Below are positions 2 to 17,690 of a stretch of DNA of 17,690 nt, one piece after another. The position numbers were made by a program, and so were the translations under genes. Positions within the stretch are counted from its first letter, which is position 1; each line of letters opens with the position of its first letter. The stretch lies in the NCBI GenBank assembly GCA_005791855.1, contig SXUH01000109.1, forward strand, positions 1 through 17,690. Reading direction: 5' to 3'. This DNA is from Bdellovibrionales bacterium. GTDB lineage: Bacteria > Bdellovibrionota > Bacteriovoracia > Bacteriovoracales > Bacteriovoracaceae. The notes beneath the pieces were generated by a model that did no database searches, was not told the origin of the DNA, and was given only the letters and a program-made list of their open reading frames with translations.

Positions 2-469
2 AGCCCGGCGCGTCTCATCCGAACCGTACTGCTTACAGGCCTCGACGATGTCGCTGCTGCGAGCTCGGAAGCAAGCTTGTCTGGTGTCATCGGAGCCGAA
101 CCAGCGGCAGGCATCCACCACGTCCTCGCTCCGGGCCCGGAAGCACGCCTGGCGGGTTTCGTCGGATCCGTACCACTTGCAAGCCTCGACGACTCCCCCG
201 CTCCGGGCCCGGAAGCACGACTGACGGGTATCGTCCGAGCCGAACCACCGGCAGGCGTCGACCACGTCGCTGCCGCGAGCTTCGAAGCAGACCTTGCGGG
301 TTTCGTCGGAGCCGTACCAGCGGCAGGAGTCGACGACCGAGCTAGAGTCCGCGCGGAAGCAGGCCCGGCGGGTTTCGTCGGAGCCGTACCACTTACAGCT
401 CTCCACCACCGCCGCGTCGTTTGCCCGGAAGCAGGCGAAGCAGGTCTCCTCGGAGCCGAACCAGCGGCA
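2..469 (-). repeat. Tandem 72-bp coding repeats, six full units plus a partial one
   Basis: Successive 72-base units encode the 24-residue repeats of the partial secreted protein. The best conserved DNA core encodes WFGSD/WYGSD followed by ACFR. Units fall into two types. One starts CR and follows a codon for Asp; the other starts CK and follows a codon for Glu. This fits amplification of a two-unit block. The array runs off the left edge. Confidence 0.85.
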
Positions 470-541
470 GGCGTCCGCGACGGACTGGCCCAAGGCCACG
501 GTGGTGGAGAGGAAAAAAGAAAGTACGATTAAGCTTCTCAT
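2..541 (-). CDS. Secreted two-cysteine 24-residue repeat protein, 3' end outside window
   Basis: No stop codon is reached before the left edge, so this is the N-terminal 180 residues of a longer protein. The ATG at 541 follows a GGAGG Shine-Dalgarno (SD) sequence five bases upstream. Residues 1-19 form a Sec signal peptide (hydrophobic core, ALG-Q cleavage region). From residue 25 there are seven tandem units of exactly 24 residues, the seventh cut by the edge. The consensus is CRWFGSDETRQACFRARSSD followed by VVDA, with cysteines in a C-x11-C spacing. Unit 1 has an extra cysteine (ETCFAC). The layout resembles small disulfide-braced helical hairpins, which is inference from spacing only. A protein of the same design lies at 13924-14589. 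I do not recognise a named family. It was missed by simple stop-to-stop ORF finding because it is partial. The reading frame is certain; the function is unknown. Confidence 0.88.
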   Translation of the reverse strand, partial: MRSLIVLSFFLSTTVALGQSVADACRWFGSEETCFACFRANDAAVVESCKWYGSDETRRACFRADSSSVVDSCRWYGSDETRKVCFEARGSDVVDACRWFGSDDTRQSCFRARSGGVVEACKWYGSDETRQACFRARSEDVVDACRWFGSDDTRQACFRARSSDIVEACKQYGSDETRRA

Positions 542-639: not shown

Positions 640-1590
640 TCAGTCGATCCCGACGTACTTCCGGAACCCGACCTTCTTGAGCTTTTCCTTGAGGCTCACC
701 CCGGTGTTCAGGGCGGCGTCCTCGAAGCTCAGGGTGGAGGAGCCGATCTCCTCCACGGTGTTCGTACTGAAGGTCTCCCCGGCCGGGTCCTGGAGCCGGA
801 TGCTCACCTTCTGCTTCACCAGGAAGAGGTTCCCCTGCTTCTGGTCCAGCATCTCACCCCCGACCCGGAAGATGAGGGGCGCCTCCAGCTCGGAGATCCG
901 GTACCCCTGCTCCGTCACGGCGGTCTTAAGGACGTTGGCGGTCTGCTGGAACTTCGGATCCTCGAGCAGGATGGAGAAGGAGACCCCGTCGAGCTTCGTC
1001 CTCGCCTGCTCCCGGTAGCCCTGGAGCTTGCTCTGGTCAGCGCCCACGGGTGCGCCGAGGGATCCGAGGATGGCGAGGACCGCCTCGTACTCCTCCAGTT
1101 CGGCGTGGAGCTTCGGGGAGCTCCGGAGGTACCCGACCGAGGTCGCCTGGAGCTTCTGCTCGATCGAAGCCGCGAGCCGATCGCGCTGGCCTCCGTAGGT
1201 CTGAAGGACCGAAGCCTTCTCCACCTGGACGAGGACCAGGAAGTCGAAGTCTTCGGTCTGATGAGTCTTTAGCACTTTGTATCCCGTGAGGTCCACCTTC
1301 GAGGTCTCGAGCTCCAGCGTGCTCCGGATCACGTTGCTCCGAGCGTGGGAGCTCGTCACCGAGTCCTGCTTGAACTTCGAGGAGACCACCGTCTTGATCT
1401 GCGCGGCGATCTCGCGGAGGGCGTCCTTGATCGCCGGGTCCTTCGCGGCCCCCTTCCCGGAGGCGTAGAAGAACTGCTCGTCGGAGGTGTTCGGCTCCAG
1501 GTACCACTGCGGGTACTGGGCCCGGCGGTCCTTCTTCGAAGCACAGGAGACGAGCAGAACGAGGAGGAGGAGGTGGCCCAGGGACTTCAA
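640..1590 (-). CDS. LPP20-family outer-membrane lipoprotein
   Basis: 316 residues. A lipoprotein signal with lipobox LVSC puts the lipidated cysteine at residue 16. After it, PQWYLEP (27-33) and a region ending in KDALREIAAQIKTVVSSKF match the LPP20 pattern of a Trp-containing entry followed by an Ala-rich helix. The C-terminal half (about 200-316) is a second alpha/beta region of unknown role. The start is TTG, two bases after the TAA of the CsgG-like gene. GGGAG inside the end of that gene serves as SD, so translation is probably coupled. It is last in a three-lipoprotein operon. LPP20-type proteins such as Vibrio FlgP act at the outer membrane, often near flagella or envelope assemblies. 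The specific role here is unknown. Confidence 0.82.
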   Translation of the reverse strand: MKSLGHLLLLVLLVSCASKKDRRAQYPQWYLEPNTSDEQFFYASGKGAAKDPAIKDALREIAAQIKTVVSSKFKQDSVTSSHARSNVIRSTLELETSKVDLTGYKVLKTHQTEDFDFLVLVQVEKASVLQTYGGQRDRLAASIEQKLQATSVGYLRSSPKLHAELEEYEAVLAILGSLGAPVGADQSKLQGYREQARTKLDGVSFSILLEDPKFQQTANVLKTAVTEQGYRISELEAPLIFRVGGEMLDQKQGNLFLVKQKVSIRLQDPAGETFSTNTVEEIGSSTLSFEDAALNTGVSLKEKLKKVGFRKYVGID

Positions 1591-1592
1591 GC

Positions 1593-2621
1593 TTACTCCC
1601 GCTCTTTGAGCTGGCTCGCGAGCTGCCGGCCCTTCTCGAGCCTCGCCGCGATCCGCTTCACACCGTCGTTGATCTCCGGCACGGGCTTCACGGCGATCTC
1701 GTCGGCGGCCTTGTAGTACTTCTCGGCCTCCGCCAGATCGCCGTGGGCCTCGAGGAGGACGGCGTAGTTGTAGTTGGCGACGTAGCTCTTCCAGCTCACC
1801 GACTCCCCGAACTTCTGGAACCGCTCGAGGGACTTGTCCACCCGGCCGGCCTTGGCGAACTCGAAGGCGGACTTGAAGAGCTCCTCCTGCTTGCCGGAGG
1901 TTTCCACGTTGTCGTCGTCGATCTCATCCAGGAGCGCGACCTCGAGGACGTACTTCGTCGGCGCGACCTTGGCGATGAGGTCCTTGGAGATCTTCCGGAG
2001 CATGGAGCTCAGGACTTCGCTGCCGCCGGGGATGCTTCCGCCGTCCGGGCACTTCGAGTACGATTCGGATTCGGTGAAGGTGTTGGAGAAGACGTAGTTT
2101 CCGGTGGCGGTGTCGACGAGCTTGACTAGGATGCTCACCCCGTAGGTCTTCTCCTGGCAGCTCACGGTGTACTCTTCGTACCGCTCGCACCCGCCCTTCT
2201 TGTTGTGGTAGGCGCACCGAGAGCGGGATTCGTTCCGGTAGGCGTCGGAGGAGGTCACGGAGACCACTTCTCCGCTGAAGATTCCCTGAGCGCCGACCAG
2301 CTTCCCGACCTTGATCCGCTGTTCCGGATCCACGGCCCAGGAAGAAGAGAGCTGCTGCTCGGCGAGGATGTTGGCGAGGTTCTTCCGCTCGACCACCTGG
2401 AAGTACGGCTTCTTCCCGTCGAGCGAGTACCCGCCGAGGGCGCCTTCGATCACTCCGCTCACGCCGATCCGGTCCTTCTCAAAGGTGTCGAAGGCGACGG
2501 TGCGGATGGAAGCGACCTGGTGCTCCTGCGCCGGCTCGATGGCCTGGAAGGCGATCTTTTGCTTGGATGCGCATGAGACAAGGGTTAACGACAGTAGACA
2601 TAATGTCCATCTAGCTTTCAT
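1593..2621 (-). CDS. CsgG/HfaB-like lipoprotein with TPR-like C-terminal tail
   Basis: 342 residues. The lipobox LVSC gives Cys17. Residues 36-125 follow the CsgG pattern: VASIRTVAFDTFE strand, then YFQVVERKNLANILAEQQL, then KVGKLVGAQGIFSGEV. This is the nucleotide-binding-like alpha/beta fold of the curli secretion channel family. A cysteine-rich insert (Cys136, 145, 155, 191) replaces the usual smooth transmembrane hairpin region, and VSILVKLVDTATGNYVFSNT follows. Residues 245-310 look like one or two TPR helices (YNYAVLLEAHGDLAEAEKYY). ATG at 2621 has AGGAG as SD. It is the middle gene of a lipoprotein operon with LPP20-like partners, so an envelope-anchored complex is likely. No curlin genes (csgA/B) are nearby, so curli export is not implied. 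Confidence 0.82.
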   Translation of the reverse strand: MKARWTLCLLSLTLVSCASKQKIAFQAIEPAQEHQVASIRTVAFDTFEKDRIGVSGVIEGALGGYSLDGKKPYFQVVERKNLANILAEQQLSSSWAVDPEQRIKVGKLVGAQGIFSGEVVSVTSSDAYRNESRSRCAYHNKKGGCERYEEYTVSCQEKTYGVSILVKLVDTATGNYVFSNTFTESESYSKCPDGGSIPGGSEVLSSMLRKISKDLIAKVAPTKYVLEVALLDEIDDDNVETSGKQEELFKSAFEFAKAGRVDKSLERFQKFGESVSWKSYVANYNYAVLLEAHGDLAEAEKYYKAADEIAVKPVPEINDGVKRIAARLEKGRQLASQLKERE

Positions 2622-2658
2622 AGATCTCCTCTTGAGATGTGGTGAGTGGGGGTCGTGC

Positions 2659-3339
2659 TTAGTTGCTCGCCGGAGTCCGGTCGGCGAATTCCTTCGGGGC
2701 TTCCGAGAGGGATTTCAAGAGGTCGCTCTTGCCGGCCGTCTGTTCCTTGTTAAGAACCTTGGCGAGGGTGTTCTTCACCACTTCCTCGAGGGTCTTCTTA
2801 CTTAGCTTCACGAGCACCTTGCAGTTGTAGACCGAGTTCGCTCCCCCGGCCTGTGAGTAGTCTCTCTCTTCCCAGGTGGTGGAGACGACCTGCACGCCCG
2901 GGAGCATGGACTTGGCTTCCGAGGAGAGGATCGAAGCGAAGTTCCGGTCCACTCCGTTGCCGCTTGACTCCATCTTATTGATCACGGCCTTCCCTTCGGC
3001 CGTCTCGGACATCTTCGAGGTGATGAAGGTTCCCATCTCCTGCGCGATCTCCTGGCGCGCTCTGGCCTTGGCGGACTCGCAGCCCGCCATGCGGTCGTTC
3101 ACGTCACCGGAGTCGCCCACGAAGAAGCGGTCCGGGCTGCTTTCTTTCTGTTCGTTGAAGGTCATGAAGTCCCAAGACCACTGCGGCGCCTCTTCGTGGC
3201 TCCGGTCTCTTACGATGTAGTTTCTCTGAACGACCTTCGCGGACTGCGGGGCCTGTGCTTTCTCACCGTGCTTGGTTCCCGCACAGCTGGTAAGGATGAG
3301 ACCGGACATGAGAGCCAAAGCGATTTTAGAAGTCGACAT
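2659..3339 (-). CDS. LPP20/FlgP-like lipoprotein
   Basis: 226 residues. The signal peptide ends in lipobox LTSC (Cys19). The mature part contains APQWSWDFMTF (51-61) and then FFVGDSGDV followed by an Ala-rich helix (SAKARARQEIAQEMGTFI), the LPP20-type layout. The C-terminal part (YNCKVLVKLSKKTLEEVV) fits the closing strand and helix. ATG at 3339 has a strong AGGAGG four bases upstream. It is the first gene of the operon, with 37 bases to the CsgG-like gene. The AT-rich 3340-3420 stretch ahead of it probably holds the operon promoter, but no clear hexamer pair stands out. LPP20 assignment is by motif only. The partners suggest an outer-membrane complex. Confidence 0.78.
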   Translation of the reverse strand: MSTSKIALALMSGLILTSCAGTKHGEKAQAPQSAKVVQRNYIVRDRSHEEAPQWSWDFMTFNEQKESSPDRFFVGDSGDVNDRMAGCESAKARARQEIAQEMGTFITSKMSETAEGKAVINKMESSGNGVDRNFASILSSEAKSMLPGVQVVSTTWEERDYSQAGGANSVYNCKVLVKLSKKTLEEVVKNTLAKVLNKEQTAGKSDLLKSLSEAPKEFADRTPASN

Positions 3340-13923: not shown

Positions 13924-14589
13924 ATGCTCCGAACCATCCTCACCGCTGCCCTCCTCCTCTCTTCCCTCACGGCCTTCGCCCAGAGGAACGGCCGCGAGGA
14001 CGCCATCCGAGCTTGTAACAACCTCTCCTCGAGCTACGTCGAGGCCTGCCTCACCGGTGGCCAGGCTTCCGCGGAGTCGATCAACGCCTGCAACGACCTC
14101 TCCTCGAGCTACATCCTCACCTGCCTCCGGGGACCGCGGAAGACTGCCGAGACGATCCGGGCGTGTAACAACCTCTCCTCGAGCTACATCGAGGCCTGCC
14201 TCGAGGGCCGCGTCTCCTCTGCGGCCCAGGTCCAGGCCTGCAACAACCTCTCCTCCTCCTACATCGTCTCCTGCCTCCAGGGTGGCCGCAAGGACCCGCA
14301 GGTGATCCAGGCCTGTAACAACCTTTCGAGCAGCTACATCCAGGAGTGCCTCGCCAGCCGGCACACGTCGGCGGCGGCGATCAGCGCCTGCAACGACCTC
14401 TCCTCGAGCTACATCGTCACCTGCCTCCGCGGAGGGAAGGGCCCGGAGGTCATCCGGGCCTGCAACGACCTCTCCTCGAGCTACATCCAGACCTGCCTCA
14501 GCGGCCGGGTGAGGAGTGCCGCGGAAGTCCGCGCGTGCAACAATCTCTCCAGTAGCCAGATCGAAGCGTGCCTCGCCGGCAGATGGTGA
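13924..14589 (+). CDS. Secreted two-cysteine repeat protein, eight units
   Basis: 221 residues. Signal peptide MLRTILTAALLLSSLTAFAQ is followed from residue 31 by eight units of 25 residues (unit 6 has 24; unit 8 stops after 17). The unit core is CNNLSSSYIEACLEGR, with cysteines in C-x10-C spacing, then a variable linker ending in an aliphatic-x-Ala before the next cysteine. Sixteen cysteines in all, two per unit, suit intra-unit disulfides in an alpha-hairpin solenoid (inference). Units alternate in type. ATG at 13924 has AAGGAA as SD. It has the same architecture as the partial gene at 2-541. The N/D and S-rich surface is neutral, unlike the R/D/E-rich paralogue. No named family is recognised. 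Confidence 0.88.
   Translation: MLRTILTAALLLSSLTAFAQRNGREDAIRACNNLSSSYVEACLTGGQASAESINACNDLSSSYILTCLRGPRKTAETIRACNNLSSSYIEACLEGRVSSAAQVQACNNLSSSYIVSCLQGGRKDPQVIQACNNLSSSYIQECLASRHTSAAAISACNDLSSSYIVTCLRGGKGPEVIRACNDLSSSYIQTCLSGRVRSAAEVRACNNLSSSQIEACLAGRW
14014..14586 (+). repeat. Tandem 75-bp coding repeats, eight units
   Basis: Each unit contains a strongly conserved DNA core close to AACCTCTCCTCGAGCTACAT, while linkers vary. Near identity of the core at synonymous positions implies recent expansion or gene conversion. Odd and even units differ in linker type, which points to a two-unit (150 bp) duplication block. Confidence 0.88.
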
Positions 14590-14610: not shown

Positions 14611-15330
14611 CTAGGTACCGGGTTCCGTCTCGGCGACCCGGTCCCAAAGCCTCCGCCGCTGGCGAAGGGCTTCGACCCCGGCCCGCTCGGCGAGCCGTCG
14701 GAGACCGTCGTCGTTGCCCGTGAGCTCCTCGAGGCACTTGAGCGCCAAGGGTCCGTGGTCCTCGGCGTCGACTTCGATGTGCCGCTCGAGGTAGTAGAGG
14801 AACGTCGGAGCTTCCAGCTCTTCTGCCCGGAGCACGGAGACGATCCTCTCGAACATCTGAGGGATGAGCTTCTCCCGGCCGAAGAAGAAACTCGCGGCGA
14901 CCTCGACCGCGCTCCCGTGGAGTGCGAGGTTGAGGTTATGGCCAACGAACTCCCGGGCCCCCGGCGGCACTCGCGCGAGGTCCAGCGTCGAGACGAAGTC
15001 CCGGATCTCCGCCGTCGAGGCCCCCACCTCTTCCATCGCCCGGAGGTAGAGTTCGAAGTGGGACCCGGGCCTGCCGTCCAGATCCAGGTCGCTCTCTTCG
15101 CCGAGGACGATCTGGTTGATCAGGCGGACCACTCCGGCCGGGTACTTCGAGGGCCTCCAGGGAACCTGGACGCAGGTGAGCTCTCGCTGGAGGGCCTTCA
15201 GGAGGCTCATGAAGTCCCAGACGGCGAAGACGTGGTAGCGCATGAACCGCTGGAGGGCCTTCCGGTCCGTGAGGGTCTCGTAGACCGGGTGCTGGGTGAG
15301 GAGCTTCTGCTGCTCGAAGATTTGATCCAT
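14611..15330 (-). CDS. DUF3050 heme-oxygenase-fold protein
   Basis: 239 residues, cytoplasmic, full length for the family. The DUF3050 signature is unmistakable: HPVYETL near the start, FMRYHVFAVWDFMSLLKALQ (29-48), LTCVQVPWRP, then INQIVLGEESD (71-81) and SHFELYLRAME (90-100). FFFGREKLIPQMF (148-160) and YYLERHIEVDAEDHGPLA (179-196) complete it. The conserved His and Glu residues (H33, E78/E79, H91, H184, D188, H192) fit a heme-oxygenase-like helical bundle that in related proteins binds a di-iron centre. An oxidase role is possible but unproven. ATG at 15330 has a weak AGG SD. TAAGAT (15350-15355) with TAGCAA 17 bases further is a weak promoter. Its stop faces that of the repeat protein across 21 bases. 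Confidence 0.9.
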   Translation of the reverse strand: MDQIFEQQKLLTQHPVYETLTDRKALQRFMRYHVFAVWDFMSLLKALQRELTCVQVPWRPSKYPAGVVRLINQIVLGEESDLDLDGRPGSHFELYLRAMEEVGASTAEIRDFVSTLDLARVPPGAREFVGHNLNLALHGSAVEVAASFFFGREKLIPQMFERIVSVLRAEELEAPTFLYYLERHIEVDAEDHGPLALKCLEELTGNDDGLRRLAERAGVEALRQRRRLWDRVAETEPGT

Positions 15331-15423: not shown

Positions 15424-17127
15424 CTAGCTCATCGGTAGCTTCAAACAGAAGGTCGTCCCCGCCGCCTCGGTGCTCACGAGCTCCACCTGGCCTCGGTGAG
15501 CTTTGGCGATGGCGGCGACGAGGGTGAGCCCGATCCCCCAGCCTTTCTGGCCCCCCTGCCGAGCGGACTCTGACCGGCGGTAGAGGTCGAAGAGGTTCTT
15601 CTGCTCGACCTCGGGGATCGGGGCGCCCCGGTTGTGCACGCAGATCTTGGCGAAGGCCGCCGTCTGGGAGAAGCTGATCTTGATGGGACTGTCCGGGGTG
15701 CCGTACTTGGCCGCGTTGTTCACGAGGTTCTCCACCGCCCGTTGAATCTGCCGCTTGTCCCAGCAGCCGATCACCGGCTCGGAAGCGGGAACAAACCGGA
15801 TCCGGTTTCCGTAGATCTCCTTCAGAGATGCCTCGACGGGACCCAGGACGAGCTCGAGGTCGCAGACATCGAGGTTCAGGGGGATCGGCTCCCCGGCCCG
15901 CACCCGGCCCGCGTCCAGGAGATCGGAGATCATGTCTTCCATCCGGGTGAGGTTATTGCTCACCTTCTTCGAGAGCTCCTCGATCTTCCCATCGTGTGCC
16001 TTGCGGACGATGAGCTGGGAGCTGAGCTTGGCCGCCGTCAGCGGAGTGCGGAGGTCGTGGGAGAGGGCCGCCACGAAGCGCTCCCGGAGCATGGTCTCTT
16101 CTTCGAGTCGGATCTGGAGGAGCTTCTGTTCGTGGATCTCGGTGTTGGTCCCGATCCATTTGCTGATCCGGCCGTCCGAGTCCTTGATGGGGAGCCCCCG
16201 GGCGATGAACCACCGGTACTCTCCCGTGACCGCGGACCGGAACCGGTGCTCCACCTCGTAGGGGATCTCCTTTTCGCGGGCCGTGGCCCAGGTCTTCGCG
16301 ATGACGTCCCTGTCCTCCGGATGCACCGGGGAGGTGTCGTCGTCCCAGTGACTGTCTCGGGACTTCCCGGTGAACTCGTAGTACCTGTCATTGAACCAGT
16401 CGACGTGGCCGTCGGGCCTTGCGGTCCAGACGATCTGAGGCATGGCGCTCGCGATCTCCTGGATCTTGGCTTCGCTCTCCTCGAGGACCTTCCTCGCACG
16501 GACCTCATCGGTCACGAGCTGGTGGAGGGCGAGGACCCCGCGGACCTCGCCGGTCGGTTTGCGGAACGGGTGGTAGCTGATGTTGAGGTACTGCTCGACC
16601 AGGTTCCCGTGCTCATCCGGAAGCGGGAGTCTGATCTCCTTAGCGGTGCGGGGCCGTCCCGTCCGGTAGACGTCATCGAGGAGCTCGACGAAACCACCGG
16701 CTTCTTCCTCGGAAAAGACTTCGAGGACTTCTTTCCCGACGACCTTCCTTCCGACCATCTCTTCGAAGGCCTTGTTCGCCACCAGGTACCGGTGCTTCGG
16801 ACCCTCGAGCATCCCGATGGGCATGGGAGCTTGCCGGAAGAATTCCTCGAGGTACTCCTGGGCGTCCTTCTGCACCTTTTCGATGCGGACCCGCTCCGAG
16901 ATGTCCGAGACGAGGGTGATGACGCCGAGGACTTTCCCGTCATGCGGATCCTTGTCGGGGATGTAGTCGACGTGGATGTGCCGGGTCCCGGTCGGGTACG
17001 GCGCCTCCTGTTCGAAGGAGACTCGTTCGCCGGCGAAGGCCCGGTCGAGCCAGGGCTTCGCCCGCTGGTAGGCGGCTTCTCCCACGAACTCCCTGACAGA
17101 CTTCCCGACGAGGTCTTCCCGCTTCAC
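15424..17127 (-). CDS. PAS-PAS-histidine kinase, C-terminal segment after in-frame TAG
   Basis: 567 residues from GTG 17127, which has AGAGGTGG upstream and could allow restart. It begins inside a PAS domain (to about residue 80). A second PAS follows (about 93-210), then a PAS_3 fold (about 216-335, with MPQIVWTARPDGHVDWFN and VHPEDRD). The HisKA has ALSHDLRTPLTAAK (phospho-acceptor H357), and the ATPase domain has ENLVNNAAKYG (466-476) and GWGIGLTLVAAIAKAHRG (529-546). The usual DxGxGI is VHNRGAPIP, with Asn for Asp, as I recall is usual in this kinase subfamily. No membrane segments: a soluble sensor. No receiver domain or response regulator gene is adjacent. In frame with 17161-17574; together they form one kinase of about 716 residues. 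Confidence 0.85.
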   Translation of the reverse strand: MKREDLVGKSVREFVGEAAYQRAKPWLDRAFAGERVSFEQEAPYPTGTRHIHVDYIPDKDPHDGKVLGVITLVSDISERVRIEKVQKDAQEYLEEFFRQAPMPIGMLEGPKHRYLVANKAFEEMVGRKVVGKEVLEVFSEEEAGGFVELLDDVYRTGRPRTAKEIRLPLPDEHGNLVEQYLNISYHPFRKPTGEVRGVLALHQLVTDEVRARKVLEESEAKIQEIASAMPQIVWTARPDGHVDWFNDRYYEFTGKSRDSHWDDDTSPVHPEDRDVIAKTWATAREKEIPYEVEHRFRSAVTGEYRWFIARGLPIKDSDGRISKWIGTNTEIHEQKLLQIRLEEETMLRERFVAALSHDLRTPLTAAKLSSQLIVRKAHDGKIEELSKKVSNNLTRMEDMISDLLDAGRVRAGEPIPLNLDVCDLELVLGPVEASLKEIYGNRIRFVPASEPVIGCWDKRQIQRAVENLVNNAAKYGTPDSPIKISFSQTAAFAKICVHNRGAPIPEVEQKNLFDLYRRSESARQGGQKGWGIGLTLVAAIAKAHRGQVELVSTEAAGTTFCLKLPMS

Positions 17128-17160
17128 CGGGAACCACCTCTCGTATTCGGAGTTGACGGT

Positions 17161-17163
17161 CTA
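17161..17163 (-). other. In-frame amber stop inside the first PAS domain of the kinase
   Basis: The codon order is TAC-TAG-ACC-GTC-AAC, giving RRY-stop-TVN. In PAS_4 sensors this spot reads RYxxVN with any residue at the stop position. The reading frame is open for about 137 codons before and 578 after. The stop is a single-base change from CAG (Gln), AAG, GAG, TGG or TTG. Possible explanations are a nonsense mutation, a sequencing error, or read-through. Confidence 0.9.
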
Positions 17164-17574
17164 GTAACGGCGGTCGCCGTCGAGGTAGCTGATGAGGGCC
17201 GGAACCGCGTCCATCACCAACCGGAGCTGCTGTTCCTTGCGCGTGAGCTCCGTCATCGACTTCGCGCGCACGAGCCAGAGGTCCAGAGCTTCGTTCAGGG
17301 CGAAGAAGACGTCGGGGGCCGCTGCCAACTTCTCACCGAAGACCTCCCAGAGCACGCGCCGAAGATTCTTCACGACACCGAGCGGATTCCGGATGCCGGA
17401 GGAGTCGATGGGGCCAGAGCTCTTTCCTTCGGAGACGTTGGCGAGTCCGAGGATAAAATCTGCGAGCTGGCGTTCGGAGATGAGAGACGCATCGACCTTG
17501 GATTTCCACTGTCCCAGGATGACTTCCTGAGAGTCACGCAGGAGGTTCGAAAGAGTTACTCTTGAATCTGACAT
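17161..17574 (-). CDS. N-terminal segment of the interrupted sensor kinase
   Basis: 137 residues from ATG 17574; a GTG six bases earlier (17580) is an alternative. Neither start has a good SD. Residues 8-105 are helical (LLRDSQEVILGQWKSKVD, LWEVFGEKLAAAPDVFFALNEALDLWL), resembling the RsbRD_N-type sensory module found ahead of PAS kinases. A PAS domain then begins (QQLRLVMDAVPALISYLDGD) and is cut after DRRY by TAG. The next codons, TVNSEYERWF, continue the same PAS motif in the same frame. On its own this product would lack a complete PAS and any catalytic part. Confidence 0.75.
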   Translation of the reverse strand: MSDSRVTLSNLLRDSQEVILGQWKSKVDASLISERQLADFILGLANVSEGKSSGPIDSSGIRNPLGVVKNLRRVLWEVFGEKLAAAPDVFFALNEALDLWLVRAKSMTELTRKEQQLRLVMDAVPALISYLDGDRRY

Positions 17575-17668: not shown

Positions 17669-17690
17669 TTCATAAGACCATCTAATTTTC

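Follow-up and report, generated by a model that had tools for sequence, protein, structure and literature searches.

Two open segments that lie in one reading frame and are parted by a single TAG raise a simple question: are they two genes, one gene that is still read in some unusual way, or one gene that has recently been broken? The window, by which we mean the whole analysed stretch of 17,690 nucleotides, carries the locus on its minus strand. The answer that we favour, and consider probable, is that a gene for a multi-PAS sensor histidine kinase has recently acquired one nonsense change in its first PAS domain (PAS1). The frame opens at ATG 17574 (GTG 17580 gives the longest reading), meets the TAG at 17163-17161 and then stays open for 578 codons to its own stop, a TAG at 15426-15424 (minus strand). 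The residues at the junction read DRRY-stop-TVNSEYERWF and no bases are missing. The sequence-only reading that first pointed to this locus had placed a single TAG at 17161-17163 between two segments of the same frame, and both its coordinates and its junction residues were correct. The features of the locus are as follows.

17161..17574, minus strand: N-terminal open frame, 137 aa from ATG 17574 (139 aa from GTG 17580), a region without Pfam match followed by the first PAS1 strands; listed separately in the protein database as P0203
16885..17211, minus strand: PAS1 (PAS_4), interrupted by the TAG; 64.1 bits, one TAG inside
17161..17163, minus strand: in-frame TAG within PAS1, from the reading frame and the PAS_4 match across the stop
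17134..17142, minus strand: SD-like GAGAGGTGG upstream of GTG 17127; duplex energy -8.3 kcal/mol
15424..17127, minus strand: C-terminal open frame, 567 aa from GTG 17127, ending in TAG, with the rest of PAS1, PAS2, PAS3, HisKA and HATPase_c; listed separately in the protein database as P0002
16501..16839, minus strand: PAS2 (PAS_4); 40.6 bits
16123..16446, minus strand: PAS3 (PAS_4 / PAS_3); PAS_4 31.3 bits, PAS_3 53.2 bits
15892..16086, minus strand: HisKA with the SHDLRTPL phospho-acceptor box; 55.5 bits on DNA, 51.7 bits on protein
15430..15759, minus strand: HATPase_c, positions converted by hand from residues 608-717 of the frame as read through; 68.7 bits

When the frame is read through, with X at the stop, the domain order is PAS-PAS-PAS-HisKA-HATPase_c. 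There are three PAS_4 stretches, and the best of them covers residues 124-232, with the stop at residue 140, i.e. one PAS_4 domain spans the TAG, as had been claimed from the run of the PAS motif. PAS2 and PAS3 share the reading frame of the kinase, while PAS1 is complete only in the read-through version. The further claim that the kinase boxes are kept downstream also agrees with the domain matches, since HisKA, with its phospho-acceptor His, and HATPase_c both lie in the intact 578-codon frame, and in the 567-aa frame the PAS domains, HisKA and HATPase_c are all above the Pfam cut-offs. The reading as two independent genes from the start was rejected because the PAS domain passes through the stop. 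The N-terminal stretch of about 115 residues has no Pfam match; RsbRD_N was considered for it, as the homologue P0003 carries this domain (34.7 bits), but the N-terminal piece gave no match to it at E up to 1. An antisense frame at 15634-17565 (plus strand, 643 aa) has a codon score of -0.178 per codon and was dismissed as a mere shadow of the kinase frame. Upstream of the gene, at 17668-17641, there is a sigma-70-like site with 9 of 12 bases, which is weak evidence as one such site was found and 0.5 were expected in the scanned stretch.

Several neighbours were noted in the window. Immediately downstream of the kinase a DUF3050 protein is encoded on the same strand, at 14611-15330 (minus strand; 271.2 bits, Haem_oxygenas_2 36.2 bits). 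The frame at 13924-14589 (plus strand) encodes a small protein that begins in a signal-like manner and carries tandem repeats of about 25 residues of the kind ACNNLSSSYIEACL; TRF finds 6.6 copies with a period of 75 bases at 14017-14505, and the Pfam matches are scattered, not repeat-wide. A second repeat protein at 2-541 (minus strand), which runs off the contig, has units of about 24 residues (DACRWFGSDETRQACFRARS) in an array with a 72-base period at 36-475; it has no Pfam match over the cut-off and follows the same plan of short, Cys-bearing repeats. Three consecutive genes with lipoprotein-like starts occupy 640-3339 (minus strand), with matches to LPP20 (47.9 bits), CsgG (43 bits) and, weakly and under the cut-off, an LPP20-like family (13.5 bits).

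Codon usage, too, indicates that the continuous frame is not a chance arrangement. The codon score per codon is 0.296 in the C-terminal part of the kinase gene (gene mean 0.29, sd 0.112), 0.249 over the 21 codons leading up to the TAG and 0.223 over the 11 codons between the TAG and GTG 17127, and it is negative in both shifted frames. Against this, the whole N-terminal piece of 137 codons scores just 0.096, so the initial portion is less typical coding sequence; third-position GC is 0.76 in the N-terminal and 0.87 in the C-terminal part. No further damage was seen, the 578 codons after the stop being open with a gene-like score throughout.

The alignment of homologues, which had been proposed as a check, was carried out on 200 database proteins (120 listed of 1163 matches and 88 from another search, minus overlaps and the window's own pieces), PAS1 alignments being accepted at E 1e-4 or better. 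The column of the stop was reached by 107 of the 200 proteins, the remaining 93 giving no alignment that reached it, and a residue is present there in all 107; these proteins are predictions and stop-free by construction, so the count speaks for a widespread continuous form but does not make broken forms rare. Counted by alignment, 138 reached the column, all with a residue, and 4 fell short. The residue is R in 52 of the 107 proteins, V in 12, T in 12, L in 8 and others in fewer, and the usual motif around the column is RY-x-FVN..YE.WFG. The closest full homologue among the best 120 of 1163 matches, P0003, is a continuous protein of 790 aa with 40% identity over 84%. L020, a paralogue of 604 aa from the same assembly, lacks the N-terminal region; its three PAS_4 stretches are all whole, and it runs on without a break at the corresponding position. 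All 107 proteins and the paralogue have a sense codon where the stop lies, which proves the existence of continuous relatives only. Because homologues and paralogue are continuous at this column, the ancestor was one continuous gene and the stop is a derived break.

The search of related genomes turned up neither an orthologue nor a relative with the same split. Of 57 other such genomes, 25 being congeneric, none matched the N-terminal piece, whose only second match was to 34 residues of a PAS kinase in its own assembly. A pattern search of the genome contigs gave 98 matches, none confirmed as an orthologue, and a DNA search with the whole gene, in which at most five candidates were scored per genome, had matches in 2 of the 57 genomes, 64 and 75 bases long and confined to the kinase core. 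The 567-aa protein compared with the genome contigs retrieved six distant kinases (26-38% identity), and the best congener by protein, among the matches listed for 37 other genomes, shows 46% identity over residues 361-717. Among the matches listed, kinases of two congeners each contain a stop, TGA in one case and TAA in the other (G009:C14:38482-39162 and G003:C1:738256-739179); these could be other broken kinases, or their stops could lie near alignment ends.

Among the options offered by the sequence-only reading, a fresh nonsense mutation fits best, as the frame is intact, the domain continuous and the homologues continuous. Under it the TAG would be a biological change rather than an artefact, a recent one, and the function of the full-length protein would presumably be lost: ribosomes starting at 17574 would stop after 137 codons and the full-length sensor would not be made. 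A shorter kinase produced by restart at GTG 17127 would then be a by-product with a damaged PAS1. After this recent nonsense allele we rank an assembly error next, with a functional restart about level with it.

Under the assembly-error option, the main rival, the TAG arose in assembly or consensus building, while the population has a sense codon at this position. The fragmentation of the assembly (462 contigs, 60% complete) speaks in its favour, as does the flawless remainder of the gene. However, a search of the whole assembly found no stop inside 42 HisKA, 33 other PAS_4 and 25 ABC_tran matches, so that stop-making errors are evidently not common in it. In addition, the protein database lists the two halves apart (P0203, 137 aa, and P0002, 567 aa), each on a contig of 20,810 bases, whereas the contig of the window ends at 17,690. 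Since both halves are listed separately there, the TAG seems to recur, which suggests that it stands in the longer contig too, perhaps from the same reads. A continuous, near-identical copy was not present among the best 120 of the 1163 protein matches. On balance we regard an artefact as unlikely, but as an option to be reckoned with.

The second rival holds that the split gene is kept in use, i.e. that restart at GTG 17127 yields a 567-aa kinase in which the N-terminal region and also the beginning of PAS1 are missing. There is a precedent for restart in lacI. GTG 17127 is the first start past the internal TAG, the 12th codon after it and 33 bases on, and the bases upstream of it are GAGAGGTGGTTCCCG. 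The SD-like site that had been pointed out here is real: its duplex energy is -8.3 kcal/mol, and the start at 17574 has no SD (+0.6). An exact SD match of 6 bases occurs at 35 of 202 sampled first starts and at only 64 of the 2596 internal in-frame starts, a rough comparison as the first starts were taken mechanically. The energy is equalled or bettered by 32 of the 202 first starts, which also speaks for the site; against it, 130 of the 2596 internal starts do as well, and the SD-like bases code for the ERW box, a conserved element of the PAS motif. In the paralogue this box is written in other codons and the SD-like stretch is absent, so the stretch is not dictated by the motif alone. The paralogue also bears on the product in two ways: it shows that a kinase without the N-terminal region exists, but its PAS_4 stretches are all whole, whereas restart at residue 152 would drop about the first 29 of 110 PAS1 profile positions, or about a quarter of the domain. 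The absence of this split from the relatives searched is a further point against it. Reinitiation is called frequent in prokaryotes in PMC5972666, where the ribosome is also said to cover 34-38 nt of mRNA, and the distance from TAG to GTG in our case is 33 bases. A literature search on restart in histidine kinases found no paper. Some restart at GTG 17127 is plausible from the sequence, and the SD-like site leaves room for a functional short kinase; as an account of the locus, however, we hold maintained use of the split gene to be doubtful, to much the same degree as an assembly error. If it were true, the locus would illustrate how one substitution can split a sensor kinase. A more elaborate form, in which a short N-terminal protein and a restarted kinase with half a PAS1 make up a translationally coupled pair, kept for a changed (e.g. 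signal-independent) activity, appears to us quite improbable.

It could also be asked whether this bacterium reads TAG as an amino acid, by a suppressor tRNA or by recoding. Stop usage was sampled in 243,026 bases of its own assembly, namely the window and 19 other contigs of the 462, picked for holding kinases, in which 204 open frames were chosen by codon score (both pieces of the interrupted gene are among them). TAG is the commonest terminal stop in these frames (TAG 85, TAA 60, TGA 59), and it also ends the kinase gene. In 17 frames the stop is followed by at least 50 in-frame codons with a coding-like score: 10 with TAG, the kinase included, 5 with TAA and 2 with TGA. The resulting proportions, 10 of 85 for TAG and 7 of 119 for TAA and TGA together, lean towards recoding, but the difference is not significant (Fisher p 0.20). 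When the halves of the nine other TAG-linked pairs were scanned apart, no family was found to be split by TAG. Six pairs have different families on either side (in one of them, L009, the upstream match is under the Pfam cut-off), and the remaining three are uninformative on at least one side, with a complete family upstream only, weak matches upstream only, or no match. In the sampled contigs and the domain families scanned, TAG is thus neither avoided as a terminator nor widespread in-frame in conserved domains. Among the 16 tRNA genes found in the assembly, which is 60% complete, none has a CUA anticodon. The same incomplete assembly gave no match to RF1, which would favour recoding; nevertheless, it gave nothing for RF2 either beyond one match of 22.6 bits under the cut-off, and since RF2 is missing too, the absence of RF1 looks like assembly incompleteness. 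RF1 is over the cut-off in 16 of 17 congeners and in 22 of the 29 genomes searched in all, the present one counted. A structured read-through signal was considered and rejected: the fold of 141 nt around the stop is no better than that of shuffled sequences (139 of 200 at least as stable; z 0.55), and no Rfam match in the window exceeds the gathering score. The searches for other in-frame TAGs and for a suppressor tRNA, which the sequence-only reading had recommended, thus turn against its amber read-through option; we consider recoding extremely unlikely, and the gene lends no support to it in this lineage.

For annotation, our preferred reading of a recent nonsense allele means that the two gene calls correspond to one kinase gene with a stop, and that in the longer of them (567 aa) the first sensing domain is incomplete.

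It is useful to compare this gene with known systems. Firstly, it has the same domain order as the multi-PAS sensor histidine kinases (PAS_4/PAS_3, HisKA, HATPase_c), with its domains over the Pfam cut-offs, but differs from them by the in-frame stop in PAS1 and by the N-terminal region of about 115 residues without Pfam match. Secondly, it resembles bacterial genes disrupted by nonsense changes. A survey of 64 prokaryote genomes reports around 7,000 candidate pseudogenes (PMC522871), and as in such genes, a disabling stop lies in an otherwise recognisable gene; what sets the kinase apart is that it has one disablement only and that no close orthologue was found for dating it. Finally, a split two-component gene is described in Wolbachia, where, according to PMC4426382, the cckA gene of strain wAlbB contains five in-frame stops attributed to one nucleotide deletion. 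That gene was likewise annotated as two open frames through in-frame stops, and an artefact was considered there too. The difference is that the Wolbachia stops are attributed to a deletion, whereas the kinase described here has one stop and no change of frame.
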